Source: Stenotrophomonas sp. WZN-1 (GTDB lineage: Bacteria > Pseudomonadota > Gammaproteobacteria > Xanthomonadales > Xanthomonadaceae). From it: a stretch of 64,000 nucleotides of DNA. Below the pieces are notes generated by a model, which saw nothing but the letters and a program-made list of their open reading frames with translations, did not search any database and was not told where the DNA came from. Location of the stretch: positions 638,001 through 702,000 of the forward strand of contig NZ_CP021768.1 of assembly GCF_002192255.1 (NCBI RefSeq), given 5' to 3'. The translations under genes were made by a program, and so were the position numbers. Within the stretch, counting starts at the first letter, position 1, and every line of letters starts with the position of its first letter. This document shows positions 45,883-61,456 of this stretch, in pieces.

Positions 45883-45912
45883 GCACTGGCCGGCGTACGC
45901 GCCGGCCAGTGC
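45883..45912 (+). promoter_or_regulatory. 13-bp UACG hairpin after smf-1
   Basis: GCACTGGCCGGCG (45883-45895), loop TACG, CGCCGGCCAGTGC (45900-45912): a perfect stem capped by a UNCG tetraloop, 15 nt past the smf-1 stop and 42 nt before the chaperone. No T-run follows. It probably protects or partly ends the major-subunit mRNA so that pilin exceeds chaperone and usher. Confidence 0.7.
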
Positions 45913-45953
45913 TCCGCGGCCCCTGGCCACACCCCTCGAGCGTAGTACTTCCG

Positions 45954-46682
45954 ATGAAAGCACTCTTTCCCCGGGCGCTGCTGCTGGCAGCGTTCACGCT
46001 GCCCTTCTGCCAGAACGCACTGGCCGGCGTGGTGGTCAATGGCACGCGAGTGATCTATCCGGCGCAGGCGCGCGAAGTCACCGTGCAGGTCGACAACGTG
46101 GGCGATTCGCCGGCGCTGGTGCAGGCCTGGATCGACAGCGGCGACGCCAACCAGACTGCCGATACCAGCGATGCACCGTTCGTGCTGACGCCGCCGATCG
46201 CGCGCGTCGAGCCGGGCCGCAGCCAGGCGCTGCGCCTGATCTTCTCCGGCGCACAGCTGCCGACCGATCGCGAGACGGTGTTCTGGCTCAACGTGCTGGA
46301 CGTGCCGCCGTCGCCGGACAACGCCGACAGTGGCGAACAGAATTACCTGCAGGTCGCGTTCCGTTCGCGCCTGAAGCTTTTCTACCGGCCGCAGGGTCTG
46401 AAGGGCGTCGCCAACGACGCACCGGCAGCGCTGCGCTGGACCCGCACGGGCGACCGCCTGCGGGTGGAAAACCCGAGCCCCTTCCACGTCACTCTGGCCG
46501 AAGTGCATGCCGTGACCGGCAGCAGTGAAAAGGCCGTCGAGGACAAGGGCGCGATGGTCGCGCCGAAGCAGAGCCTGGAGTTCGCCGCACCGGTGGGCAC
46601 CGACCAGGTCCGCTTCATCACCATCAACGACTACGGCGGCCGGGTCGAGCACACCATCCGCCTCGGCAGCACCGGGGGCTGA
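45954..46682 (+). CDS. Periplasmic fimbrial chaperone (PapD-like)
   Basis: 242 residues with a signal peptide ending NALA/GVVV. Two Ig-like domains: N-terminal GVVVNGTRVIYPAQAREVTVQVDN with the family Arg at the groove, PPIARVEPGRSQALRLIF, and FWLNVLDVPP, the conserved G1/F1 region. It binds pilin subunits in the periplasm by donor-strand complementation and delivers them to the usher. Second gene of the smf operon. Confidence 0.94.
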   Translation: MKALFPRALLLAAFTLPFCQNALAGVVVNGTRVIYPAQAREVTVQVDNVGDSPALVQAWIDSGDANQTADTSDAPFVLTPPIARVEPGRSQALRLIFSGAQLPTDRETVFWLNVLDVPPSPDNADSGEQNYLQVAFRSRLKLFYRPQGLKGVANDAPAALRWTRTGDRLRVENPSPFHVTLAEVHAVTGSSEKAVEDKGAMVAPKQSLEFAAPVGTDQVRFITINDYGGRVEHTIRLGSTGG

Positions 46683-46753
46683 ACGCGCCGCGCGGGCCAT
46701 GGGCCTGCGCATCCCGCCACCGCCGCCGTGCGGCGAATTGAAGGAATGTCAGT

Positions 46754-49339
46754 GTGATCGGAAACAGATTGACATTGTCGATCCATCAGGCACTTTGCCT
46801 GCTGGTTGTTGGTGCAGCCTGCCCAGGATGGGCGCTGGCTGCTCCGGCCAATCTCGGCGAACAGGCGCTGATGGCGCAGAGTGGTGCGGCCAATGCGCGT
46901 GCACCGGAATCGGCCCAGTTCAATTCCAGCTTCCTGTCCGGCCAGGCCAAGCAGGTCGACCTGGCGGCCTTCAGCAACGGCAATCCGATGGTGGCCGGCA
47001 GCTACCGCGTCGATGTCTACGTCAACGGTGCCTGGCAGGGTCGTCGTGACCTGCAGTTCAAGGCCGATGCACAGGGCCGCGTGGAAGCCTGCCTGCCGCT
47101 GCCGATGCTGGAAGAAATGGGCGTGGACAGCGAGGCTGTGCTGCTGCAGCAGGACCCGACGCTGCCGACCGACAAGACCAGCTGCGTGCCGGTGCAACAG
47201 CGCATGGCCAATGCCTATGGTGTCTACGACAGCGGCAACCTGCGCTACGACCTCAGCATCCCGCAGGTGTTCCTGCGTCGCGAGGCGCGCGGCTACGTCA
47301 ACCCGGCGCTGTGGGACCGCGGCATCAATGCCGGCTTCGTCGGCTACAGCTTCAATGCCATCGACAGCGACAGCCGCGTCGAAGGTGGCCAGCGCAACCG
47401 CAGTGCCTACCTCGGACTCAACGCCGGCCTGAACCTGGGTGGCTGGCAGTTCCGCCACGATTCCAACCTGACCTGGTCCGAAGGCGACGGCCGCCACTGG
47501 CAGAGCATCGCCACCTATGCGCAGCGCGGCATCCCGCAGGTGCGCGGCATGCTCACCATCGGTGAGGCCTACACGACGGGCGAGCTGTTCGACTCGATCG
47601 GTTACCGCGGTGCCAGCCTGGCCAGCGACGACCGAATGCTGCCCGATTCGCTGCGCGGTTACGCGCCGGTCGTGCGCGGCATCGCCGAGACCAACGCGCG
47701 CATCGAAGTGCGCCAGAACCAGCAGCTGATCTACTCCTCCACCGTGTCGCCGGGCAGCTTCGTCATCGACGATCTGTACCCGACCGGCTACGGCGGCGAC
47801 CTGGAAGTGAGCGTGATCGAGGCCGATGGCCGCCGCCGCGAATTCAAGGTGCCGTTCGGTTCGGTGCCGCAGATGCTGCGCGAAGGCGTGTCGCGCTACG
47901 CGCTGACGGCCGGCCAGGTGCGCAACAAGCTGTTGGCCGACGAGCCGTGGCTGGTGCAGGGCACCTACCAGCGCGGTATCGGCAACCAGCTGACCCTGTA
48001 CGGTGGCAGCGCGCTGAGCGACGGCTACCTGTCGCTGCTGTACGGCGTCGGCCTGTCCACGCCGGTCGGCGCGTTCGCTGCCGACGTCACCCATGCACGT
48101 ACCTCGTTCGACCACTACGGCAGCCATACCGGCGCCAGTGTGCGGCTGAGCTACAGCAACATGATCGGCGAGACCGGGACCAACCTGACCCTGGCCGCCT
48201 ACCGCTACTCGACTGAAGGCTTCTACAGCCTGCAGGACGCACTGTATGGCCGTGATTCGGACAAGCGCGGCATCGACCCGACCACCCGTGGCCGCCAGCG
48301 CAGCCAGTTCCAGGTAACGCTGAACCAGCCGCTGGGCCGTCGCGGCGGTGCGCTGTACGTGACCGGTTCGGTGCGTGACTTCTATGACCGTTCCGGCACC
48401 TCCAAGCAGTACCAGGTGGGCTACAACAATGCCTGGCGCTCGGTGAACTACGGCTTCTCGGCGCTGCGCACCGAAGAAGGCGTGCTGGGCCGTTCCGACA
48501 CCCAGTACCTGCTGTCGATGAGCGTGCCGCTGGGCCGTGGCACCCACCCGGTGTCGTTCAGTGCCGATCTGGGCGTGCGCGACCGCGGTGGCTACGACAA
48601 CAGCCGCGTCGGCATCACCGGTTCGGCCGGCGTCGACAACAACTTCAGCTACGGCGCAGCCCTGTCCGATTCCCGCGAGGGTGGCACCACCGCGATCGCC
48701 AATGCCGAATACCGCAGCCGCTACTCCGCATTGAACGCCACCTACAGCCACTCGCGTGATTTCCGCCAGGCCTCGGTCGGCGCCAACGGCAGCGTGGTCG
48801 TGCATCCGGGCGGCTTCACCTTCACCCCGCAGCGTGGCGACACCATGGTGCTGGTCGAAGCGCCGGGCGCGCGCGATGCGATCGTCAGCAACGCCCCGGG
48901 CCTGCGCGTCGATGGCCGCGGCTACGCGGTGGTGCCGTACGTGTCGCCGTATCGACTCAACACCGTCACCCTCGATCCGCAGGGCATGGCCCACGACGTC
49001 GAGCTGGAAAGCACCAGCCAGTCGATCGCACCGTTCGCCGGTGCCATCAGCTACCTGCGCTTCGATACCCGCAAGGGCAACGCGCTGCTGATCCAGGTCC
49101 GCAACACCGACGGCCGCAGCATGCCGTTCGGTGCGCAGGTCAAGGATGAGCAGGGCCAGCCGGTGGGCATGGTCAGCCAGGGTGGCCGCCTGTACGTGCG
49201 CAGTGAAAAGAACCAGGGCCGCCTGCTGGTGGAGTGGGGTGCCGGTGCCGACCAGCGCTGCACCATCGACTACCAGGTTCCGGCGGGCGCCGATGCGTCC
49301 AAGACCGGCTTCATCCCGCTGGAGGCAACATGCCGATGA
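46754..49339 (+). CDS. Outer-membrane fimbrial usher
   Basis: An 861-residue usher starting at GTG 46754; the nearby ATG 46746 is out of frame. The signal peptide ends near GWALA/APAN. The N-terminal chaperone-binding domain (FNSSFLSGQAKQVDLAAFSNG), 24-strand pore (~120-640), plug domain (~210-300, with PRGYAPVVRGIAETNARIEV-like sequence) and C-terminal domains are present; two cysteines lie near the C-terminus (RCTIDY, EATCR). It assembles and exports the SMF fibre. It overlaps the next gene by 10 nt. Confidence 0.95.
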   Translation: MIGNRLTLSIHQALCLLVVGAACPGWALAAPANLGEQALMAQSGAANARAPESAQFNSSFLSGQAKQVDLAAFSNGNPMVAGSYRVDVYVNGAWQGRRDLQFKADAQGRVEACLPLPMLEEMGVDSEAVLLQQDPTLPTDKTSCVPVQQRMANAYGVYDSGNLRYDLSIPQVFLRREARGYVNPALWDRGINAGFVGYSFNAIDSDSRVEGGQRNRSAYLGLNAGLNLGGWQFRHDSNLTWSEGDGRHWQSIATYAQRGIPQVRGMLTIGEAYTTGELFDSIGYRGASLASDDRMLPDSLRGYAPVVRGIAETNARIEVRQNQQLIYSSTVSPGSFVIDDLYPTGYGGDLEVSVIEADGRRREFKVPFGSVPQMLREGVSRYALTAGQVRNKLLADEPWLVQGTYQRGIGNQLTLYGGSALSDGYLSLLYGVGLSTPVGAFAADVTHARTSFDHYGSHTGASVRLSYSNMIGETGTNLTLAAYRYSTEGFYSLQDALYGRDSDKRGIDPTTRGRQRSQFQVTLNQPLGRRGGALYVTGSVRDFYDRSGTSKQYQVGYNNAWRSVNYGFSALRTEEGVLGRSDTQYLLSMSVPLGRGTHPVSFSADLGVRDRGGYDNSRVGITGSAGVDNNFSYGAALSDSREGGTTAIANAEYRSRYSALNATYSHSRDFRQASVGANGSVVVHPGGFTFTPQRGDTMVLVEAPGARDAIVSNAPGLRVDGRGYAVVPYVSPYRLNTVTLDPQGMAHDVELESTSQSIAPFAGAISYLRFDTRKGNALLIQVRNTDGRSMPFGAQVKDEQGQPVGMVSQGGRLYVRSEKNQGRLLVEWGAGADQRCTIDYQVPAGADASKTGFIPLEATCR

Positions 49340-50364
49340 TCTCTTCCCGTGGCCGCAAGGCACTGACAGCCCTTGCACTGCTGGGCGGCGTGCTGCTGGC
49401 ACAACAGGCCAGCGCGTCGTGCCGCATCCAGTCCAGCTGGTTCACCGCGCAGGACGTGACCATGGACATGGGCCAGATCGTGATCCTGCCCAGCACCCCG
49501 GTCGGTGGCGTGATCAAGGAAATCAGCGAATCGATCACCCAGCAGAACAGCGTTGCGCGCTGCGACTGGTCCGGTGGCCGTTCCATCGGTGAGTACGTCA
49601 ACGCGGCGCAGCGGCGCCCGGTCGCCGGTTTCTCCAATGTGTATGAAACCGACGTCCCGGGCGTGGGCATTCGCCTGTTCCGCGATTCCGGCGCCATCCA
49701 GACCTACTATCCGCACTCCATCAACTTTGCCGGCAATGCCACCATCTCGCTGATCGGCGGCACCTTCCGCATCCAGCTGATCAAGACCGCCGCGCAGACC
49801 GGCTCGGGCGTGATCGCGCCGAACGGCCGCTTCACCACCTACTACTTCGACGGTGATGGTGCCAGTCGTCCGGTACTGACCTCGACCTTCAAGGGCTCGG
49901 GTACCACCGTGGTCAGCCCGACCTGCGAAGTGCAGGCCGGCAGCCGGAACATCGCCGTCGACTTCGGCAGCGTGCCGAACACCACCTTCACCGGTGTCGG
50001 TTCGCGCGCGGTCAATCGCGACTTCGAGATCCGGCTGAACTGCCAGGGCAGCAACGTCGCCGCCTACCAGAGCAAGATCGGCATCCGCCTCGATGCCGAC
50101 CAGGACAGCTCGAACATGCCGGGCGTGCTGAAGCTCAGCGCAGCCAGCAACAGTGCCACCCGCATCGGCATCCAGATGGTCCAGCGCGATGGCACCACCG
50201 AGCGTGAAGTGCGCTTCGGCCAGACCATCAATGTCGGCACCACCGCGCCGGGCACCAGCGTCATGGCGCTGCCGCTGCGCGCGCGCTATGTGCAGACCCA
50301 GGCCGGTACGGTCGGCGCCGGTGTCGCGAACGGCCAGGCCACGTTCACCATCCAGTACGAGTAA
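49330..50364 (+). CDS. Fimbrial tip adhesin
   Basis: 344 residues starting at ATG 49330 inside the usher end, with GGAGGC 4 nt upstream. The signal peptide ends QQASA/SCRIQ. An N-terminal lectin-like domain (~30-200) leads to a C-terminal pilin domain from about 215 (SPTCEVQAGSRNIAVDFGSV ... LNCQGS ... GQATFTIQYE). This two-domain form is that of FimH-type tip adhesins. It would sit at the fibre tip and bind the receptor. Last gene of the operon; the ligand is unknown. Confidence 0.88.
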   Translation: MPMISSRGRKALTALALLGGVLLAQQASASCRIQSSWFTAQDVTMDMGQIVILPSTPVGGVIKEISESITQQNSVARCDWSGGRSIGEYVNAAQRRPVAGFSNVYETDVPGVGIRLFRDSGAIQTYYPHSINFAGNATISLIGGTFRIQLIKTAAQTGSGVIAPNGRFTTYYFDGDGASRPVLTSTFKGSGTTVVSPTCEVQAGSRNIAVDFGSVPNTTFTGVGSRAVNRDFEIRLNCQGSNVAAYQSKIGIRLDADQDSSNMPGVLKLSAASNSATRIGIQMVQRDGTTEREVRFGQTINVGTTAPGTSVMALPLRARYVQTQAGTVGAGVANGQATFTIQYE

Positions 50365-50400
50365 GCCGGCTCCAGGCCGCGCCACTGCTGCGTTCCACCG

Positions 50401-50429
50401 CAACGTCGCCCGTTCCACGGGCGGCGTTG
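50401..50429 (+). terminator. Stem-loop after the smf operon
   Basis: CAACGTCGCCCGT (50401-50413) pairs with ACGGGCGGCGTTG (50417-50429) with one G-T pair and a 3-nt loop. It is 36 nt after the last fimbrial gene, without a clear T-run. Confidence 0.6.
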
Positions 50430-50490
50430 ACTGCGTCTTGATCCTGCAACGATGAAGATCGATGCCACGACGCGCATACAGACGCCTTAG

Positions 50491-50506
50491 TGTGATGTAT
50501 GTCGCG
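50491..50506. promoter_or_regulatory. CRP/Clp-like half-conserved site upstream of wecB
   Basis: TGTGA-TGTATG-TCGCG: a perfect left half-site and 3 of 5 matches on the right, 125 bp upstream of the wecB start. Weaker than the sites at 20666 and 44966, but placed ahead of a locus with a predicted c-di-GMP-binding glycosyltransferase. Confidence 0.4.
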
Positions 50507-50518
50507 AATTTGGAGTTT

Positions 50519-50581
50519 CCTCATGAGGTGACCGTCTCCTGCCTTCGGGTATTGGACGGCAACGCCGAAAGGATCCAGACG
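50519..50581 (+). promoter_or_regulatory. Possible structured leader of the polysaccharide locus
   Basis: A perfect palindrome CCTCATGAGG (50519-50528) is followed by a nested fold: CGTC (50533-50536)/GACG (50578-50581), TGGA (50553-50556)/TCCA (50574-50577), CGGC (50557-50560)/GCCG (50564-50567), with CTGCCTTCGGG and AAAGGA left as loops. The stems are short, so this is only a candidate. It lies 50 nt before the wecB start. Confidence 0.35.
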
Positions 50582-50630
50582 TGGCTACTGCTGTTTGCCC
50601 CCTTCCGCGCCGGCCTTCGGGAGCGCTCCG

Positions 50631-51815
50631 GTGAAGGTCCTGTCGGTATTCGGCACGCGACCGGAAGCCATCAAGATGGGGCCCCTGGTGCGCGCCTTGG
50701 CACAGGCTGCGGATATCGAATCGGTGGTCTGCATCACCGGGCAGCACCGCGCGATGCTCGACCAGGTGATGTCGCTGTTCGAGATCACCGCCGACCATGA
50801 CCTCGATGTGATGGTGCCCAACCAGACCCTCAATGGCCTGTGCTCCAGGCTGTTCGAGCGGCTTGACGCGCTCTACACGCAGGTCCGCCCTGACCGGGTG
50901 CTGGTGCACGGCGATACCACCACGGCCATGACCGCCGCGCTGGCCGCGTTCCACCACCGCATCCCGATCGGCCATGTCGAGGCCGGCCTGCGCACCGGCG
51001 ACATCAACCGGCCGTGGCCGGAAGAGATGAACCGGCGGGTGATCGATGTGGTCGGCCACCAGCTGTACGCGCCCACGCCCGGCTCGCGCGCCAACCTGGC
51101 CCGCGAGCATCTGGGCGGGCAGATCCTGGTCACCGGCAACACCGTCATCGATGCCCTGCAGCAGACCGTGCAGCGGCTGGATGCCGATCCGGCACTGCGC
51201 GCGCAGGCCGACCAACCCTTCCATATGCTCGACCCCGCGCGCCGCCTGCTGCTGGTCACCGGCCACCGCCGCGAGAGCTTCGGCCAGGGCTTCGAGGACA
51301 TCTGCCGTGCACTGGCCGAGCTGGCGCGGCGGCCGGACCTGCAGGTGCTGTACCCGGTGCACCTCAACCCGAACGTGCAGGGCCCGGTCAACGCCCACCT
51401 CGGCAACCTGGACAACGTGCACCTGGTGCCACCGCAGGATTACCTGCGCTTCGTGCGCCTGATGCAGCGCGCCGACGTCATCCTCACCGACTCCGGTGGC
51501 GTGCAGGAAGAAGCACCGGCGCTGGCCAAACCGGTGCTGGTGATGCGCGATGTCACCGAACGACCGGAGGCGGTCGAGGCCGGCGTGGTGACACTGGTCG
51601 GTACCACGCCTTCGCGCATCATCGATGCGGTCAACGCGGTACTGGCACACCCCCCGCAGCCGACCCGCTTCGACCCCGATGCCAGCCCCTACGGCGATGG
51701 CCGCGCCAGCGCCCGCATCGTCGCCGCCCTGCGCGGTGCGCCCCTTCCCGAATTCTCGCCCGGTCTCCGCAGTGGCGGTGCCGCCCACCTCCATCCGCAT
51801 GAAGTGACGCCATGA
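50631..51815 (+). CDS. wecB: UDP-N-acetylglucosamine 2-epimerase (non-hydrolysing)
   Basis: 394 residues starting at GTG 50631 with GGGAG 8 nt upstream; a TTG at 50595 is an in-frame alternative with a non-family N-terminus. The N-terminus is MKVLSVFGTRPEAIKM. Residues known to be catalytic in E. coli WecB are in place: Asp (VHGDTTT), Glu (GHVEAGLRTGD), Glu (WPEEMNRR) and His (TGHRRES); SGGVQEEAP closes the nucleotide site. It interconverts UDP-GlcNAc and UDP-ManNAc. First gene of a four-gene run with 4-nt overlap to the next, so it probably supplies UDP-ManNAc to the NfrB-like enzyme. Confidence 0.95.
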   Translation: MKVLSVFGTRPEAIKMGPLVRALAQAADIESVVCITGQHRAMLDQVMSLFEITADHDLDVMVPNQTLNGLCSRLFERLDALYTQVRPDRVLVHGDTTTAMTAALAAFHHRIPIGHVEAGLRTGDINRPWPEEMNRRVIDVVGHQLYAPTPGSRANLAREHLGGQILVTGNTVIDALQQTVQRLDADPALRAQADQPFHMLDPARRLLLVTGHRRESFGQGFEDICRALAELARRPDLQVLYPVHLNPNVQGPVNAHLGNLDNVHLVPPQDYLRFVRLMQRADVILTDSGGVQEEAPALAKPVLVMRDVTERPEAVEAGVVTLVGTTPSRIIDAVNAVLAHPPQPTRFDPDASPYGDGRASARIVAALRGAPLPEFSPGLRSGGAAHLHPHEVTP

Positions 51816-54013
51816 CCCAGACCGGCCGCTCTCCCCTGTTTGTTTCCGCCGCCGCGTTCGTCCTGTCGGGCGCGGTCGGCACAGCCCATGCCGCCGACAG
51901 CGTCACCGGCCAGTTCGCCGAATGGAGTGGCGACAGCACGGTGAACCGGCAGATGACCCTGCGCGAACTCGGCTTCCGCCAGCCGCTGGTGCTGAGCGGG
52001 CAGGAGAGCCAGCGCGAGGTCTACCTGCCGGTACCGGCAGGCGTCGCCACCCGCGATGCGCAACTGCAGCTGGACGGGCGCTATGTGCGCGGCCACGCCG
52101 GGCGCACCTCGGGCTTGTGGTCGGTCGATGGTGATCCGATCGTCGCGCGTTCGATTACCGACGCGCAGGGCGATGCCAGCCAGCTGCTGGCCATCGATGG
52201 CGAACCTCGCCAGAACGGTTTCGTGCGGGTCGGTGTCGGCTGGTGGTCGATCGTGTCCGACTACCAGTGTGCCGACCAGAGCGCGCCGGCCAACGTGCTG
52301 CGGCTGTCGCCGGACTCGCGCTTCAGCTACCGCTTCGATGGGCGTGCCGTGGATACCGTGGCCAAGGCCTGGGGCGCGCTGCCACCGCAGGTGCGTCTGC
52401 TGGTGGATGGAAAGGCGTTGCAGGCGCCCGCCTACGACGCGGCCTGGCGCATCGGTACCGCGTTGCAGGCCGGCGGCAAGCAGGTGCAGGTGGTGGCGCT
52501 GCCCAAGGTCGGTGACAGCGTCGACCTGGCCGGCATCAGCATCCCGGCCAGCCTGCAGAGCGTGCCGGCCTATGCCGCGCTGGCCGCGGGCGAGCGCGCG
52601 CACGCGATCAAGGATCTTGCCGAAGTGGGGGCGCTGCTGTCGTTGCGCGACAGCGGGCCGTTGGCGGCCGATGTGATGATCGGCAGTGACGCACTGCGTG
52701 CCGGCGTACGCGCGGCGCTGGATGCGCTGGCTGCCCAGGTCGGCGCCGCGGGTGCCGATGCGGGCACGGCCTTCAGTGCCTGGCGCAGTGCCGACATGGC
52801 TGGACTGGAAAAGCCCGCCGCCAACGCCTCGGTCAGCGTGGTCGCCGTTGCCGGGCGTCCGACGCTGGTGGTCGACCCGGCAGCGGCGGGCAAGGTCGCC
52901 GGGCTGTTCGCCGAACAGTGGCGCAGCTATGCGCTGGGCCGCAGCCTGCAGGTCAGCGCAGCAGGAACGCCCAGACTGGACGGTGACCAGGTACTGCTGA
53001 GCCGGCTCGGCAACATCGCCGGTACCATGGATGTGGTGACCCGCGCCGACCGCAGCGGCAGCTTCGACCTCGGCGCGCTGTCGGCCGATGGCCGCCTGCC
53101 CGAGGAGGTGGTGATCGACGTCTCGGCGGCCCCCAACGCGGCCGGGCAGGGCGCGGTGGCGACGATCTACTTCAACGACTATCTGCTGGGCGGCAAGGTG
53201 CTGTCGGCCAACGGCCAGCCGCAACGGCTGGTGGCCAAGGTGCCGGCCTACGCCCTGTCAGCGCGCAACGAGATCCGCGTCAGCTTCCTGCGCCAGCCGG
53301 CACGCCCCTACTGCCACGATCCGGCGACCGGCTATCCGGTATCGATCCTGCCCAGCAGCCACCTGACCCTGGCCAAGCGTTCGCTGGGCAGTGACTTCGT
53401 TGGTGCCAGCAGCCAGCTGTCACGCGGCAACCAGGTATTCGTGCCCGTCACTTGGCTGCAGGATGCGCCGGCCTCGCTGGGCAAGGTCATCGCGGTGGCC
53501 AGTGCAGTGGGTGCATCACCGGAGGCGTCGGAACTGAAGGTCGTCGATGCCGGTGCCGCGGTCAGCCCGGGCGCGCCGTGGCTGGCGTTCGGCGTGGCGC
53601 CCTCCGGTGTGGATGTGGCCGGCCTGAAGGATGGCCACCTGCTGATCGGCGGCACGCCACAGCCGCTGCTGGATGTCAGCGGCCTGGATCGCGCCGCGGT
53701 GGTGCAGGTGGGGTCGTCCGGCGGCCAGCTGGGCGTTCTCTACAGCGACCTCGGTGCGCAGGCACCGTCGTTCGGCGCCCCGTTCCGGCTGCTGCGGGGC
53801 GATCTCGCCGTGCTCGACGGCAGTGATGCCGTGCGTGAATTCGACCGCCAGGATCCCTATGGCACGCGTATCGCGCAGGACGGCAATCCGCAATCGAAGT
53901 GGGAACGGCACATGGTCTGGTTGCTGCTGCTGGTCGGCGTGATCGTGTTCGCGCTGCTGGCCGCCCGCGTTACCCAGGTGCGCCGCCGCAAGTCCGCCAA
54001 CACAGGGCACTGA
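51812..54013 (+). CDS. BcsB-like periplasmic polysaccharide-export protein
   Basis: 733 residues: a signal peptide (SAAAFVLSGAVGTAHA/AD), a large periplasmic part and one C-terminal membrane helix (~702-722, MVWLLLLVGVIVFALLAARV) with a basic cytosolic tail. This is the layout of the cellulose synthase subunit BcsB. LRELGFRQPLVLSGQESQREVYLPVP and RPYCHDPATGYPVSILPSSHLTL resemble BcsB jellyroll and flavodoxin-like blocks. In E. coli the nfr locus has the much smaller YbcH instead. It overlaps wecB (ATGA) and ends 6 bp before nfrB. Likely guides the polymer across the periplasm with NfrB. Confidence 0.75.
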   Translation: MTQTGRSPLFVSAAAFVLSGAVGTAHAADSVTGQFAEWSGDSTVNRQMTLRELGFRQPLVLSGQESQREVYLPVPAGVATRDAQLQLDGRYVRGHAGRTSGLWSVDGDPIVARSITDAQGDASQLLAIDGEPRQNGFVRVGVGWWSIVSDYQCADQSAPANVLRLSPDSRFSYRFDGRAVDTVAKAWGALPPQVRLLVDGKALQAPAYDAAWRIGTALQAGGKQVQVVALPKVGDSVDLAGISIPASLQSVPAYAALAAGERAHAIKDLAEVGALLSLRDSGPLAADVMIGSDALRAGVRAALDALAAQVGAAGADAGTAFSAWRSADMAGLEKPAANASVSVVAVAGRPTLVVDPAAAGKVAGLFAEQWRSYALGRSLQVSAAGTPRLDGDQVLLSRLGNIAGTMDVVTRADRSGSFDLGALSADGRLPEEVVIDVSAAPNAAGQGAVATIYFNDYLLGGKVLSANGQPQRLVAKVPAYALSARNEIRVSFLRQPARPYCHDPATGYPVSILPSSHLTLAKRSLGSDFVGASSQLSRGNQVFVPVTWLQDAPASLGKVIAVASAVGASPEASELKVVDAGAAVSPGAPWLAFGVAPSGVDVAGLKDGHLLIGGTPQPLLDVSGLDRAAVVQVGSSGGQLGVLYSDLGAQAPSFGAPFRLLRGDLAVLDGSDAVREFDRQDPYGTRIAQDGNPQSKWERHMVWLLLLVGVIVFALLAARVTQVRRRKSANTGH

Positions 54014-54019
54014 TCCACC

Positions 54020-56167
54020 GTGGACGGTCTGTTCTGGAACATCCAGCTGGCCAACTACTACGCCGCCCTGGAAACCACGGCGGCGGCGGTGGCCGTGCTG
54101 ATCCTGATCTCCAGCCTCGATGACCTGTTCATCGATGTCTGGTACTGGGTGCGCGAGAGCTGGCGTGCGCTCACCATCAAACGCCGTGATGCGTACCGGC
54201 CGCTGACCCAGGACGACCTGCTGCAGCGGCCGGAACAGCCGCTGGCGATCATGGTGCCGGCGTGGATGGAGTATGACGTCATCGCGCAGATGGTGGAGAA
54301 CATGATCAACGTGCTCGACTACCGCGAGTACGTCGTGTTCGTCGGCACCTATCCCAACGACCAGCAGACCATCGACGAAGTCGAGCGCATGCGCCGCCGC
54401 TACAAGCGCCTGCGCCGCGTGGAGGTGCCGCACGACGGGCCGACCAGCAAGGCCGACTGCCTGAACTGGCTGATCCTGGCGATCTTCGAATATGAGAAGC
54501 GCCACGACATCGAGTTCGCTGGCGTGATCCTGCACGACAGCGAGGACGTGCTGCACCCGATGGAACTGCGCTTCTACAACTACCTGCTGCCGCGCAAGGA
54601 CATGATCCAGTTGCCGGTTACCTCGCTGGACCGCGAGTGGTACGAGCTGGTGGCCGGTGTCTACATGGACGAGTTCGCCGAATGGCACGCCAAGGACCTG
54701 GTGGTGCGCGAGAGCGTATCCGGCATGGTGCCGTCGGCGGGCGTCGGCACCTGCTTCTCGCGGCGCGCGCTGCTGGCACTGAGCGCGCAGACCGACAACC
54801 AGCCCTTCAACACCGACAGCCTCACCGAGGACTACGACGTCGGGGCGCGGCTGGCGGCGATGGGCATGCAGTCCATCTTCGCGCGCTTCCCGGTGCAGTT
54901 CCGCGTGCGTCGGCCGTCATGGTTCGGCTGGGGGCCGGTACGCGAGCGCACCCAGCAGATGGCGCTGTGCGTGCGCGAATACTTCCCCGACAACTTCCGC
55001 GCCTCGTACCGGCAGAAGGCGCGCTGGGTGCTGGGCATCGGCCTGCAGAGCTGGGAGTCGCTGGGCTGGCGCGGCTCGCTCGCGACCAAATACCTGCTGG
55101 CGCGCGACCGCAAGGGCATCATCACCTCGTTCGTCAGCATCATTGCCTACCTCATCTTCCTGCAGCTGCTGCTGTTCTGGGTGCTGAAGATGACCGGGGT
55201 ATGGACGATGCAGTTCCCCAGCGTGTTCCAGGCCGGTACCTGGCAGATGAATGTCGCGCTGCTGACCACCGCAGCGCTGGCGACCCGGGTCGTGCAGCGC
55301 TTCTACTTCGTCAACCGGCTGTACGGCTGGGAACATGCACTGATGTCGATCCCGCGCATGGTGGTCGGCAACATGATCAACTTCATGGCCACCGCGCGCG
55401 CGTGGAAGGTGTTCCTGGCCTACCTGCTGTTTGGCAAGCGCATGGTCTGGGACAAGACCATGCACGACTTCCCGGATGCCGCGCAGCTGGTGCAGACCCG
55501 CAAGCAGCTGGGCGAGCTGTTGAGCACCTGGCAGGCGGTGGAACCGGAGCGGCTGCAGCAGGCGCTGGACCAGCAGTCTGCCGGCCGTCAGCAGCCGCTG
55601 GGCCGCATCCTGCTCACCCAGGGCTGGCTGGATGATGAAACGCTGGCCGAGGCGATCGCCTTCCAGGGCGACCTGCCGCGTGCGGTCATCGACGTCGATT
55701 ACCTGCGCGCGGGCTCATTCCCGGTCAGCGCCGATGCCTGCGTGCAGTGGCGCATGCTGCCGCTACCGCCGCGGCAGCAGGAGACACTGCGGCTGGCCGT
55801 GGCCAGCCCATTGCCCGAAGACGCGCTGGCGTTGCTGAAGCAGGAAACCCGCAGCGCGCACATCGAACAGAGCATCGCCCGCGAAAGCGAGATCAACGCC
55901 GGTCTGCGCCTGATCGGTGGCGACCGTCACTGGCAGCTGGACAACGTGCCCTTGCTGGGCGACCTGCTGGTGGAGATGCGCCTGATCGACCACGCGCGCT
56001 TCGAGATCGCGCTGGACGCGTACAAACCGCAGCGCGACGGCCGCATTGGCGATTACCTGGTCAAGCAGGGCATCACCACCGAAGGCGCGGTGGCCCAGGC
56101 CATGCAGGAGCAGCGCCGGCGTGCGGCCACGCTGCAGCCGCCGCCTCCCGGAGCCTTGCCGGCATGA
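54020..56167 (+). CDS. nfrB: NfrB-like inner-membrane glycosyltransferase with C-terminal MshEN-type domain
   Basis: 715 residues starting at GTG 54020. One N-terminal membrane helix (~17-33) is followed by a GT2 domain: D173 (LHDSEDVL), TED motif with D271 (SLTEDYDVG) and Q332-K-A-R-W336 (QxxRW). Further membrane helices lie at ~360-385, ~405-430 and ~455-480. From R523 the tail carries MshEN-type motifs: PLGRILLTQGW...LAEAIAFQ, then RIGDYLVKQGITTEGAVAQAMQEQ from R675. MshEN domains bind c-di-GMP, and E. coli NfrB is c-di-GMP dependent. It is predicted to polymerise a ManNAc-containing glycan when c-di-GMP is high. It overlaps nfrA by 4 nt. Confidence 0.9.
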   Translation: MDGLFWNIQLANYYAALETTAAAVAVLILISSLDDLFIDVWYWVRESWRALTIKRRDAYRPLTQDDLLQRPEQPLAIMVPAWMEYDVIAQMVENMINVLDYREYVVFVGTYPNDQQTIDEVERMRRRYKRLRRVEVPHDGPTSKADCLNWLILAIFEYEKRHDIEFAGVILHDSEDVLHPMELRFYNYLLPRKDMIQLPVTSLDREWYELVAGVYMDEFAEWHAKDLVVRESVSGMVPSAGVGTCFSRRALLALSAQTDNQPFNTDSLTEDYDVGARLAAMGMQSIFARFPVQFRVRRPSWFGWGPVRERTQQMALCVREYFPDNFRASYRQKARWVLGIGLQSWESLGWRGSLATKYLLARDRKGIITSFVSIIAYLIFLQLLLFWVLKMTGVWTMQFPSVFQAGTWQMNVALLTTAALATRVVQRFYFVNRLYGWEHALMSIPRMVVGNMINFMATARAWKVFLAYLLFGKRMVWDKTMHDFPDAAQLVQTRKQLGELLSTWQAVEPERLQQALDQQSAGRQQPLGRILLTQGWLDDETLAEAIAFQGDLPRAVIDVDYLRAGSFPVSADACVQWRMLPLPPRQQETLRLAVASPLPEDALALLKQETRSAHIEQSIARESEINAGLRLIGGDRHWQLDNVPLLGDLLVEMRLIDHARFEIALDAYKPQRDGRIGDYLVKQGITTEGAVAQAMQEQRRRAATLQPPPPGALPA

Positions 56168-58998
56168 AAACCACGTTGCTGTCCACCGTCATTGCCATGG
56201 CACTGGCCAGCGCTGCGGTGCCGGTGCTGGCACAGGCCGACGCGGCACTGCCGCTGTCCGGTGCGGCCTACCGCGTCGCCGAGCAGGCGTTTGCCGCCTA
56301 TGAGCGCGGCGACTACCCGGCGGCCTACCAGCAATCCACTGAAGCGATCCGGCTGCGCCCGGACGTGGTGCGGTTGCGCCTGCTGCAGATCTATGCGCTG
56401 CAGAAACTGGGGCGGGGTGCCGAGGCGCAGCAGCAGGCGCGTCGTGCACTGGACGCGGGGTTGAAGGACCCGGCGTTGCCGCCGCTGGCGGCTGCCACCG
56501 CTGCACGCAGCGCGGCCACGGGCGGCAAGGGTGCGCGCACGGCGTCCCCATCGCGTGCGGTCGGCAGTGGCGTAGACCGCAGCAGGCAGCAGGCCTACGC
56601 GCTGGCCACCGAGGCCTACGCCGCCTATGACGCCGGGCGCATGGGAGAGGCGGCCAGCAAGGCCGAGCAGGCCTTCCGCCTGCAGCCGACGCAGGGTGCC
56701 TGGGCGATGCTGTGGGTGGCCGCGCTGGAGGCGCAGCAGCAGCCCGAACAGGCCGATGCTGCCATTGCCACCGCGCTGCAGCTGGGCGCGCCGAATGCCG
56801 AGGCGCTGCAGGCCCGGCGCGTGGCGCTGGATCGACAGCGCGCGCTGCTGCAGGCCCAGCAGGCGTATCGGTCGTTGTCCACGCAGGATGATGCCGCAGC
56901 CGTTGCGCAGGCGCGTGCCGCTGTCGAGCTGGCGCCGGAGGTGGCCACGTACGGGTTGCTGCTGATTACCGCGCAGCTGCAACAGGGGCAGCTGGCCGAC
57001 GCCGAGCGCAGTGCCGACCAGGCGTTGCAGGCCGATGACCAGGATCTCAATGCACGGGTGATGCGCGGTTACCTGCGCCAGCGCCAGGGCAATACCGCGC
57101 TCGCCAATGAGGACTTCGACAGCGCACTCGCTGCGCCAGGGTCAACAACGCAGCAGCGCAACGTGCGCCTGCTGGCGGTGGATGCGGCGCTGGCCAGTGC
57201 CGACCGCACGCGCGCTGCGGCGCTGCTGGCACCGCTGCAGTCGGCATTGCCAACGGATGCGGGCGATGCACGCGCGCAGCAGCTGCTGCGGCAGGGCATC
57301 GAGCAGCGCGCCAAGGCGGTCCGTTCCAGTCGCGAGCTTCCGCGTATGAGCGCGCAGACTTATCCGGCGCCGCTCCAGCACTGCCAGTCGGGCGACACCG
57401 GCACTGTCTGCGAGCTGATGCCGGTCGACCTGCAGGGCGACGGGGGCGCCGCACAGCGCGCCTATGCGGCCTACTCGCGTCAGGACTACGCCGAGGCCAT
57501 CGATGAGGCGCGGCAGGCCGTGCAGCTCGCACCGGACGACGCGAAGCTGCACGGCCTGCTGACTACCACGCTGGCGTCGGGCAACCGCGCCCAGCAGGAC
57601 GAAGCACGGCAGCGCCTGGATGCGGCGCTGGCACAGCGCCCTGATGACGCGGGGGCGTTGATGCAACGTGGCTACCTCAACCAGAAGGCGCATGAACCGG
57701 CGCAGGCACTGGCGGACTTCCGCGCCGCCGAGGCCACCGGCAAGGCTCCGAAGAGCGTGGTGCTGGACCAGGCATACGCGAGTGCGGCCAACGGCGATCA
57801 TCCGCAGGCGGTGTCACTGCTGCGCAGTGCCATTGACCGCGCCGACGCCGGTGAGCTGCCACTGGATGCCCATCAGCGCTACAACGTGCGCAATGCCATC
57901 GCCAACTATTCGCGCGAGTGGGGCGTGATCGCCTCGGCCGGCTTCCGGGGGGCGCGCCAGGCCGCGACCAATGTCGGTGGTGCGGCGATCAGCACGCCAG
58001 GCGATTCGGTGTTCAGTACGCTGGAGGCGTTCTGGCGGCCCCCGGCTTTCAACGACCAGCACGGCACGCTGGAACTCTACGCGCGGCTGCTCAACACCCT
58101 GTACGACCAGGGCGGCACCTACGAATCGATCCGCGCGGTGGATCCGTGCACTGGCGAATCGACACCGGATGCACGCGCACGCGCCGAACGTCTCAGCCAT
58201 TCGCGCTCCACCACCGGCTGGCCGTCCACCATCGCCTCGTTCGGCATGCGCTACGCTTTCGGCCAGACCGGCCTGAGCGCCGGCATCGAGCGCCGCCAGT
58301 TCCTCGGCAGCGCCACCCGCACGGGCGATGTCTATCCCGCATCGGCGGCCGTGCAATGCAGCCTGCAGCTGGCCCTGAACCCACCACTGGAAGCCAGCAC
58401 ACTGGCCCGCTACCGCTTGGCCAGCGGTTCCGGCGGCTGGATGTCCTACCTGACCTACGGCTATTACCACGGCACCGACCTGCGCACCGACGTGAGCCAG
58501 TGGTGGATGGTCAGCGGCTACGCGCAGGGCGGCTACACCTGGGACGACAACAGCGCCCACTTCACCCTCGACGCGCTCGATGCCAACGGCACACCGGTGC
58601 GGCGGATCGGCGATGCCAACGGGCGGTTGCATCGCGAGCAGTGGTTCGCCGCCGGTGAACTGCGTGCTGGGCGCAGCTTCCGTTTCGGCGCCGGGCAGAC
58701 CCACTGGGTGGTCACGCCGTACGTGGTGGTGGGGGCGGACTGGCTGGACCAGCGCTCGCGCGTGCGCGACCTCCGCTATCCGCTGTTCCCGGCGCAGTCG
58801 TTCGCGCTCAACGATACGCAGCGCAGCTGGTCCCTTGGCGCGGGGCCGGGCGTGGGCGTGCGCTACTGGTTCCGCGAGGACCACTACAACACGCCGCGCT
58901 CCTACCTGGACCTGACCGTGCAGTACCGCTTCGCGATCGGTGGCGGTGATACGCAGCGCGCCAAGGGCCTGTTCGCCACCGCCATCCTCTACTACTGA
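56164..58998 (+). CDS. nfrA: NfrA-like outer-membrane polysaccharide exporter (TPR + beta-barrel)
   Basis: 944 residues: a signal peptide (MKTTLLSTVIAMALASAAVPVLAQA), a periplasmic TPR superhelix over ~35-575 (repeats such as AYRVAEQAFAAYERGDYPAAYQQS and AQRAYAAYSRQDYAEAIDEARQAVQL), and a C-terminal barrel of ~300 residues starting near GVIASAGFRG and ending GLFATAILYY, an outer-membrane-type aromatic end. This is the NfrA/BcsC arrangement. In E. coli NfrA is the outer-membrane receptor for phage N4 and partner of NfrB. The ATG overlaps the nfrB stop (ATGA). Convergent with the DUF4434-type gene, overlapping it by 7 bp. Confidence 0.85.
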   Translation: MKTTLLSTVIAMALASAAVPVLAQADAALPLSGAAYRVAEQAFAAYERGDYPAAYQQSTEAIRLRPDVVRLRLLQIYALQKLGRGAEAQQQARRALDAGLKDPALPPLAAATAARSAATGGKGARTASPSRAVGSGVDRSRQQAYALATEAYAAYDAGRMGEAASKAEQAFRLQPTQGAWAMLWVAALEAQQQPEQADAAIATALQLGAPNAEALQARRVALDRQRALLQAQQAYRSLSTQDDAAAVAQARAAVELAPEVATYGLLLITAQLQQGQLADAERSADQALQADDQDLNARVMRGYLRQRQGNTALANEDFDSALAAPGSTTQQRNVRLLAVDAALASADRTRAAALLAPLQSALPTDAGDARAQQLLRQGIEQRAKAVRSSRELPRMSAQTYPAPLQHCQSGDTGTVCELMPVDLQGDGGAAQRAYAAYSRQDYAEAIDEARQAVQLAPDDAKLHGLLTTTLASGNRAQQDEARQRLDAALAQRPDDAGALMQRGYLNQKAHEPAQALADFRAAEATGKAPKSVVLDQAYASAANGDHPQAVSLLRSAIDRADAGELPLDAHQRYNVRNAIANYSREWGVIASAGFRGARQAATNVGGAAISTPGDSVFSTLEAFWRPPAFNDQHGTLELYARLLNTLYDQGGTYESIRAVDPCTGESTPDARARAERLSHSRSTTGWPSTIASFGMRYAFGQTGLSAGIERRQFLGSATRTGDVYPASAAVQCSLQLALNPPLEASTLARYRLASGSGGWMSYLTYGYYHGTDLRTDVSQWWMVSGYAQGGYTWDDNSAHFTLDALDANGTPVRRIGDANGRLHREQWFAAGELRAGRSFRFGAGQTHWVVTPYVVVGADWLDQRSRVRDLRYPLFPAQSFALNDTQRSWSLGAGPGVGVRYWFREDHYNTPRSYLDLTVQYRFAIGGGDTQRAKGLFATAILYY

Positions 58999-59996
58999 GG
59001 CAGGCCCCAGCGTCGCCGAAGCGCCGCGGCCTGCGGCGTGTCCTGGGTCAGCCACGGCTCCAGTGCATAGACCAGCACGTGCTGGGCACCGCTGTCGCGT
59101 GCCCACGCCAGCTGCCGCTGGATGCGCGCGGCATCGGCGGTTTCGCCCTTGAACGCGCTGCCGTCGGCGGCGCTGCCCGGCAGTTCGCGGAACAGTTCGA
59201 CGATCGCATCGAAGCCGATGCCGTGCGCGTGGAAATGATCGAGCAGCGGTTGCAGATGCTGCACGTTGCCGGCGCCGGCCACCCCCACGCCATCCTGCAC
59301 CATGGGCCGCAGCGCGGCCTGTGCCAGCACCGCCTGCCACAGCGTGACCAGGTTGCCATCGGTCTGCAGGCGGCTGAAGTAGCAGGAGACCGCGCAGTCG
59401 CCGCCGCGTGCGCTGGCGGCCTGAACCAGGCCGTGCAGCCACTGCGCCAGCCATTGCTGGCGTGCCGGATCGGCCCAGTGGTACTGCTCCAGTTCGTAGG
59501 GCAGGTACCAGCCGCCAAAGGCCGGCTGCTGTGCCCAGGGCGCCTGTGCCAACCACTGGCGTGCCTGCGCCAGGCTGTCGGCCAGGAAGGCCTGCAGCGT
59601 GGCATCGTCGGCACCAATGGCCTGCCACCAGCGTTGCTGGAAGGGCAGGCCGACGCGGATGCGGATGTCGTTCTCGCTGGCGGCGGCGAACAGTTGCTGC
59701 AGGCTGCTGTCCGGCAACGACCAGTCGCCGTCGCTACCACCGACGATGCCGGTCCACTGCAGCACCAGCTGCCGGCAGCCCAGCGTATGCGCGAGCTTCA
59801 ACGAGCGCTGCCAGTCCGCCAGGCCCCATTGCAGGTGGCTGCGCCAGGGCTGCAGGAAGGTGCCATCCACCTGCACCGGCAGCGAACAGCCGGGCAAGGC
59901 GGCGAGCGTACCGGCGAACGTTGCCAGCACTGCCGCGCGCAGCAGCCGCCGGCGCAACGGCGAAGACGGATCCGTGGGAAGGTCGGGCCGAACCAT
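58992..59996 (-). CDS. DUF4434-type lipoprotein, probable glycan hydrolase
   Basis: 334 residues; start complement at 59994-59996 (MVRPDLPTD...). The N-terminus has RRRLLRAAVLATFAGTLAALPGC: a positive lead, hydrophobic core and lipobox LPGC, so it is likely a lipoprotein. The body looks like a TIM-barrel glycosidase of the DUF4434 kind: VDGTFLQPWRSHLQWGLADWQRSLKLAHTLGCRQLVLQWTG, GGWYLPYELEQYHW with an acidic pair in the right position, DGVGVAGAG and YALEPW. The gene faces nfrA tail to tail. Placement suggests it trims the glycan made by the nfr genes, as BcsZ does for cellulose. Activity is untested. Confidence 0.65.
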   Translation of the reverse strand: MVRPDLPTDPSSPLRRRLLRAAVLATFAGTLAALPGCSLPVQVDGTFLQPWRSHLQWGLADWQRSLKLAHTLGCRQLVLQWTGIVGGSDGDWSLPDSSLQQLFAAASENDIRIRVGLPFQQRWWQAIGADDATLQAFLADSLAQARQWLAQAPWAQQPAFGGWYLPYELEQYHWADPARQQWLAQWLHGLVQAASARGGDCAVSCYFSRLQTDGNLVTLWQAVLAQAALRPMVQDGVGVAGAGNVQHLQPLLDHFHAHGIGFDAIVELFRELPGSAADGSAFKGETADAARIQRQLAWARDSGAQHVLVYALEPWLTQDTPQAAALRRRWGLPQ

Positions 59997-60044
59997 GCCT
60001 GCATCATCCCAGAGCGCCGTGCGCGGCAGGTGAACCACCGCCCG

Positions 60045-60068
60045 GTAGTGCCGGCCGCTGGCCGGCAT
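60045..60068 (+). repeat. GTAG REP (GTAGTGCCGGCC family)
   Basis: GTAGTGCCGGCCGCTGGCCG plus GCAT, a short hairpin between the DUF4434-type start and the purine permease stop. Confidence 0.8.
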
Positions 60069-60080
60069 CACCGTGCGCCT

Positions 60081-61409
<1,329 letters not shown>

Positions 61410-61411
61410 GG

Positions 61412-61437
61412 GTAGATGCCGGCCGCTGGCCGGCATG
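61412..61437 (+). repeat. GTAG REP upstream of the purine permease gene
   Basis: GTAGATGCCGGCCGCTGGCC... a hairpin 3 nt upstream of the permease start, and so inside its leader mRNA on the minus strand. It could affect translation. Confidence 0.7.
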
Positions 61438-61456
61438 CATGGTCGGTACACATTGC

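Follow-up and report, generated by a model that had tools for sequence, protein, structure and literature searches.

A putative BcsB-type Nfr exopolysaccharide operon of Stenotrophomonas in a probably exchangeable slot that cellulose operons occupy in related genomes

The closest described systems to the operon reported here are the nfrBA-ybcH locus of Escherichia coli, an nfr cluster of Achromobacter and the PGR locus of Acinetobacter baumannii. In E. coli, NfrB binds c-di-GMP with a Kd of about 1 uM (PMC8669469), and the Nfr system needs wecB but not the other wec genes (PMC8669472, PMC8669469); where no other WecB exists, wecB has been reported to be linked to nfrB (PMC8669469). In the Achromobacter cluster, O-acetyltransferases accompany nfrA, nfrB, a BcsB homologue and wecB (Sellner et al. 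2021, PMC8669472). In A. baumannii a bcsB homologue sits in a locus bearing NfrB and WecB; insertions in this gene or its deletion abolish adsorption of phage StAb3, and a change in wecB confers resistance (PMC12507263).

The operon studied here lies in a stretch of 64,000 nucleotides (hereafter the window) from Stenotrophomonas sp. WZN-1, whose genome is a single contig of 4.51 Mb. It resembles E. coli nfrBA-ybcH in the MshEN-bearing NfrB, in NfrA, in a DUF4434 protein of the YbcH type and in the WecB dependence described there (PMC8669469, PMC8669472), but the E. coli locus has no BcsB-like gene, its wecB is elsewhere and ybcH lies on the same strand as its neighbours. Like the window, the cluster of Achromobacter xylosoxidans holds nfrA, nfrB, wecB and a BcsB homologue together; the O-acetyltransferase homologues described for it (PMC8669472) are absent from the window, although three sister genomes (G463, G458 and G466) carry such genes. 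The PGR locus, compared here by its description, likewise has NfrB, BcsB and WecB homologues, a putative porin and a protein resembling the C-terminal part of PgaB; it also encodes PgrA, a degenerate diguanylate-cyclase-like protein (PMC12507263), and no such gene was seen beside the window operon. The Bcs cellulose systems have the BcsB fold in common with the window, but their synthase carries PilZ whereas that of the window carries MshEN, and profile searches of the window operon proteins found no BcsA with PilZ, no BcsC C-terminal domain and no GH8. Judged by its sequence, the operon is a BcsB-class (NGR-type) Nfr system, and we put the probability at roughly 0.8 that it serves a synthase-dependent exopolysaccharide from within an exchangeable slot. 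The BcsB-type Nfr arrangement is already known from Achromobacter and Acinetobacter; the alternation with cellulose operons in one slot appears to be the new part.

A preliminary description of this DNA had proposed a five-gene locus, and all five genes were found, with profile matches to WecB, NfrB, NfrA_C and DUF4434 (Table 1). Its grouping of wecB, the BcsB-like gene, nfrB and nfrA into one operon-like unit is upheld: ATGA overlaps join wecB to the BcsB-like gene and nfrB to nfrA, and nfrB starts 6 nt past the end of the BcsB-like gene, so that a single transcript would fit. The gene for the DUF4434 lipoprotein is, as had been described, convergent to nfrA; position 59996 is an internal ATG in its reading frame. 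A search upstream of wecB (50250-50750) for a c-di-GMP riboswitch or other known RNA family gave no match.

Table 1. Features of the Nfr locus and its flanks, in window coordinates.
Feature	Position	Strand	Remarks and basis
wecB, non-hydrolysing UDP-GlcNAc 2-epimerase	50631..51815	+	GTG start; predicted to supply UDP-ManNAc; TIGR00236
BcsB-like periplasmic protein, C-terminal membrane helix	51812..54013	+	PF03170 (weak); predicted fold
nfrB, GT2 polysaccharide synthase, C-terminal MshE-type c-di-GMP domain	54020..56167	+	GTG start; NF012033, NF053729, PF05157
nfrA, TPR-rich outer-membrane export protein	56164..58998	+	NfrA_C PF13283
YbcH homologue: DUF4434 lipoprotein (LPGC lipobox) predicted to fold as a glycosidase-like TIM barrel	58992..60071	-	PF14488
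Exchangeable cassette, absent or bcs-replaced in sister genomes	50509..60082	.	blastn breakpoints; slot census
Left flank: chaperone-usher fimbrial genes (chaperone, usher, MrkD-like adhesin)	45909..50364	+	Pfam
Right flank: xanthine/uracil permease-family gene	60081..61451	-	Pfam PF00860; matched in 61/61 genus genomes

NfrB of the window is a processive GT2 synthase with DxD, TED and QxxRW motifs and a C-terminal MshEN domain. It scores 1200 bits against NF012033 (cut-off 537) and 650 bits against the E. coli-type model NF008411, below the cut-off of 1170; the MshEN-type motifs noticed earlier at its end are borne out by NF053729 (72 bits, in two stretches) and PF05157 (27.8 bits). The catalytic residues D173, D271 and W336 align with E. 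coli D169, D267 and W330 and are invariant in all 97 aligned rows, and, among the c-di-GMP residues, L490 and G491 of E. coli have L497 and G498 as counterparts in the MshEN domain; E. coli L537 aligns with I546. The protein is 96-97% identical to S. maltophilia and S. pavanii records and 42% identical to E. coli NfrB, which falls in a separate clade. NfrA matches NfrA_C (PF13283) at 86 bits (cut-off 25), while its TPR matches are weak (PF13414, TPR_11, 22.2 bits, below 26.8; TIGR02917 35.8 bits, below its cut-off).

In a tree of 97 NfrB rows, from which the same-genus copies L055, L071, L072 and L073 were omitted, 84 BcsB-bearing rows fell into one supported clade of 85, the sole exception being a Collimonas row (L152), and the E. 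coli-type rows formed a separate clade of 7. This separation points to two Nfr classes, with the window in the BcsB class; since 80 of the 97 rows were picked for likeness to the window, the share with BcsB is not a frequency in nature. Among the nearest named NfrB loci (the best 80 of 579) a BcsB-like gene was present in 79, nfrA in 76 and wecB in 72, and purpose-built profiles found a DUF4434-like gene in 64, the 16 loci without one being partly an effect of 9-kb flanks and contig ends. Many of these 64 are remote relatives, and the six that were tested scored 21-27 bits, below Pfam's 30. In a sample of 398 genomes of the phylum, NfrB exceeded its cut-off in 14; a BcsB-like gene accompanied it in 6 of them and was lacking in 8, and DUF4434 followed nfrA in 6 of these 8. 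At two loci (L072 and L073) the DUF4434 gene is present farther off, beyond extra genes, and at two others (L056 and L105) a distant DUF4434-like gene separates nfrB from nfrA instead of following the latter.

The preliminary description had also related the 733-residue protein to BcsB. Its predicted model has the four-domain periplasmic BcsB fold followed by a C-terminal membrane helix (TM about 0.5, 12-13% identity), and PF03170 is matched at 26.3 bits (cut-off 21) over residues 46-174 only. The NCBIfam BcsB equivalog gave 17.5 bits, below its cut-off of 972, and we therefore file the protein as BcsB-like rather than as BcsB; a profile built from its homologues (alignment A4) matched no solved BcsB among the sequences of solved structures. 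An origin of the gene in a local cellulose bcs locus was ruled out, as the cellulose BcsB proteins of the slot exceed 700 bits to PF03170 and the BcsB-like genes reach at most 24.4 bits in the genome scan. Viral spread was likewise rejected, six pattern matches in viral contigs having yielded no relatives. In L077, L091 and L106 the BcsB-like gene is in two frames, and in L070 wecB, the BcsB-like gene and nfrA are all fragmented; these may be broken genes or assembly errors.

Does the operon then combine Nfr and cellulose architectures into a novel hybrid in which the BcsB-like protein takes the place of YbcH, as was first proposed? The juxtaposition of a BcsB fold and NfrB is real, and related genomes indeed fill this slot with bcs. 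Yet YbcH of E. coli belongs to DUF4434 (235 bits to PF14488) and a DUF4434 gene is present here, so the counterpart of YbcH is the lipoprotein that faces nfrA, and the BcsB-like protein takes no other protein's place. The BcsB-like partner is moreover ancient and already published: it accompanies NfrB in all but one row of the clade described above, with homologues outside close relatives at 34-46% identity to that of the window (alignments A2 and A4), and local borrowing from cellulose is contradicted by the scores just given. A new hybrid is thus largely refuted already and highly improbable; instead, the operon is one more representative of a class already described, with the YbcH counterpart corrected to the DUF4434 lipoprotein.

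That lipoprotein matches PF14488 at 165 bits (cut-off 30) and is 28% identical to E. coli YbcH. In the 61 Stenotrophomonas genomes a DUF4434 protein above 150 bits was present in 21/21 nfr genomes and in none of the 40 others. The predicted model is a glycosidase-like TIM barrel whose best fold neighbours are mostly glycosidases; PgaB was absent among the 50 fold matches listed, and a DUF4434 profile had no meaningful match among the sequences of solved structures. In retaining TIM-barrel glycosidases, strands 4 and 7 carry the catalytic glutamates. The predicted barrel has the invariant E193 and E292 where these two strands end, which fits this rule, and both are kept together with D260 in 25/25 rows of one alignment (A5) and 9/9 of another (A3).

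On this predicted structure we consider the DUF4434 protein a candidate glycan hydrolase. A non-catalytic periplasmic scaffold or glycan binder is a tenable but less probable alternative: YbcH has been termed a putative scaffold and found dispensable for N4 infection (PMC8669469), and A. baumannii PgrE has been likened to the PNAG-binding part of PgaB (PMC12507263), but the invariant acidic residues and the chiefly glycosidase fold neighbours speak against it. The predicted active site would move YbcH from presumed scaffold to enzyme candidate. Twelve of the 61 genomes also encode a second DUF4434 protein scoring 44-103 bits (e.g. G008:C2:108019-108864 and G470:C1:3954784-3955629); ten of these genomes have its gene about 9.2 kb from opgH, and none was found in the source genome.

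WecB of the window scores 442.8 bits against TIGR00236 (cut-off 210) and 425 bits, over residues 1-369, against the solved E. coli-type enzymes 1vgv/1f6d. Proteins above 350 bits occurred in 21/21 nfr genomes of Stenotrophomonas vs 3/40 genomes without nfr, 3 more of which were above the family cut-off at lower scores, and the source genome has no second WecB above the cut-off; the earlier suggestion of a dedicated wecB as first gene of the operon is borne out by these counts. In one genome (G005) wecB carries an in-frame TAG within the WecB match. The presence of the gene and its dedication to the nfr locus suggest that WecB supplies UDP-ManNAc, and by analogy with E. coli we infer that ManNAc is a constituent of the polymer. 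We regard a polymer free of ManNAc, with WecB working for another pathway, as quite unlikely, given that wecB opens the operon, runs into the gene behind it and tracks nfr across the genus, and that E. coli requires wecB but none of the other wec genes.

Taking c-di-GMP control, substrate and export route from the characterised relatives, the operon may work as follows. WecB would make UDP-ManNAc; c-di-GMP bound to the MshE-type tail would activate NfrB to polymerise a ManNAc chain and move it across the inner membrane; the membrane-anchored BcsB-like protein would receive and guide the chain in the periplasm; NfrA would export it; and the YbcH-type DUF4434 lipoprotein might trim or edit it. 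By replacement of the whole cassette, perhaps through recombination, strains would then swap one c-di-GMP-activated matrix polymer for another.

The permease gene beside the cassette was matched in all 61 Stenotrophomonas genomes. The BcsB-like gene, used here as the marker of nfr, was found in 21 of them at 890 bits or more, or as two strong pieces (G006); G033, with a chance-level match of 18.6 bits over 105 residues and a bcs match of 710 bits, was not counted as nfr. Cellulose BcsB exceeded 700 bits in 20/61 genomes, and the 16 further PF03170 matches, the low-scoring ones mentioned above, were all within nfr genomes. No genome had both nfr and bcs, and 20 had neither. The nfr locus lay 6.1-14.2 kb from the permease in 20/21 nfr genomes and bcs lay 5.0-7.3 kb from it in 20/20 bcs genomes, the permease-nearer match being taken where there were two (G020 and G464). 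In each of these two genomes, the two cellulose BcsB genes are about 15 kb apart.

The occupants themselves are varied. Pfam matches at one bcs locus (L157) comprise BcsE, BcsG, BcsA with PilZ, BcsB (716 bits), BcsC and GH8, and at another (L170) BcsA, BcsB, BcsC and two GH8. Seven nfr loci are long; that of G463 includes AlgX-like, MBOAT and AlgF-like genes (Pfam), as do those of G458 and G466 by sequence match. In G466, a genome without bcs, the nfr locus with AlgX- and MBOAT-like genes (L195) is away from the permease slot, so nfr can sit elsewhere. One genome with neither operon has type II secretion-type and NAPRTase genes in the slot (L189, Pfam).

In blastn comparisons with seven bcs loci, homology to the window stopped at 50461-50508 in 5/5 loci that keep the fimbrial flank and resumed at 60076-60085 in 7/7, and four empty sites broke at 50351-50370 and 60043-60071. 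The cassette is thus delimited by breaks at about 50503-50508 and 60083, and the DUF4434 gene is inside them. The MrkD-like adhesin beside the slot (49327-50364) is highly variable, at 63-100% identity among close homologues, as diversifying pressure on a surface protein would lead one to expect.

If kinship is ignored, nfr and bcs would be expected together in 6.9 genomes and were observed together in none (P(0) = 2.2e-5). A kinship-aware test had 9 supported pairs, about 5 of them informative: in these bcs changed in the direction opposite to nfr, in about 4 it did not differ and in none did it change the same way, which was not significant (p 0.0625). As E. coli has both nfr and bcs, the two are not incompatible in general, and the exclusion would be a property of the slot or of the genus. 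It could be argued that the pattern is simply inherited, one ancestral state having been lost or kept and the exclusion reflecting shared descent. On a tree of opgH, an unlinked gene more than 1 Mb from the slot in the source genome, the states are indeed clustered, with 19 slot-state changes vs a shuffled mean of 26.8; the tree holds 57 genomes, four of the 61 being omitted (G007 and G028 had no match, G015 and G016 were fragmented). But these 19 changes greatly exceed the 2 that would suffice at minimum: nfr alone needs 13, of which at least 9 are forced by well-supported branches, and at least 10 single-label changes of bcs are forced likewise. In G463, a metagenome bin, the permease is 99% identical but the BcsB-like protein on the same contig only 82%, which also argues against descent. 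We consider inheritance unlikely as the explanation.

On balance we favour repeated replacement, with some reserve: the genus would have one matrix-polymer slot, flanked by the fimbrial genes and the permease gene, whose alleles are more than one kind of cellulose operon and Nfr operons, some of which include O-acetylation genes. By repeated replacement of the whole cassette via common flanks, lineages would change the chemistry of their polymer, and probably their susceptibility to phages, in a single step; control by c-di-GMP would be retained, and the two polymers would not be kept together. Wholesale exchange is known for capsule and O-antigen loci. Here cellulose and the Nfr-type glycan, two c-di-GMP-activated synthase-dependent polymers, behave as alternative alleles of one site, so that strain-level matrix chemistry and possible phage receptors might be read from a single locus. 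We found no description of an nfr/cellulose alternation at one site in the open-licence literature searched.

With regard to phages, full-length relatives of N4 gp65 occur in Achromobacter phages (56% identity) and P. syringae phages (54%), among others, and P. syringae has a BcsB-class nfr locus (L125), which hints that both Nfr classes may display similar glycans. Phage records with such a relative numbered 118, and none bore the name of Stenotrophomonas. Partial similarity to N4 gp65, over about 30% of the protein, was seen in small phages of Acinetobacter, Loki and IMEAB3 among them, and in the Escherichia phage Halfdan.
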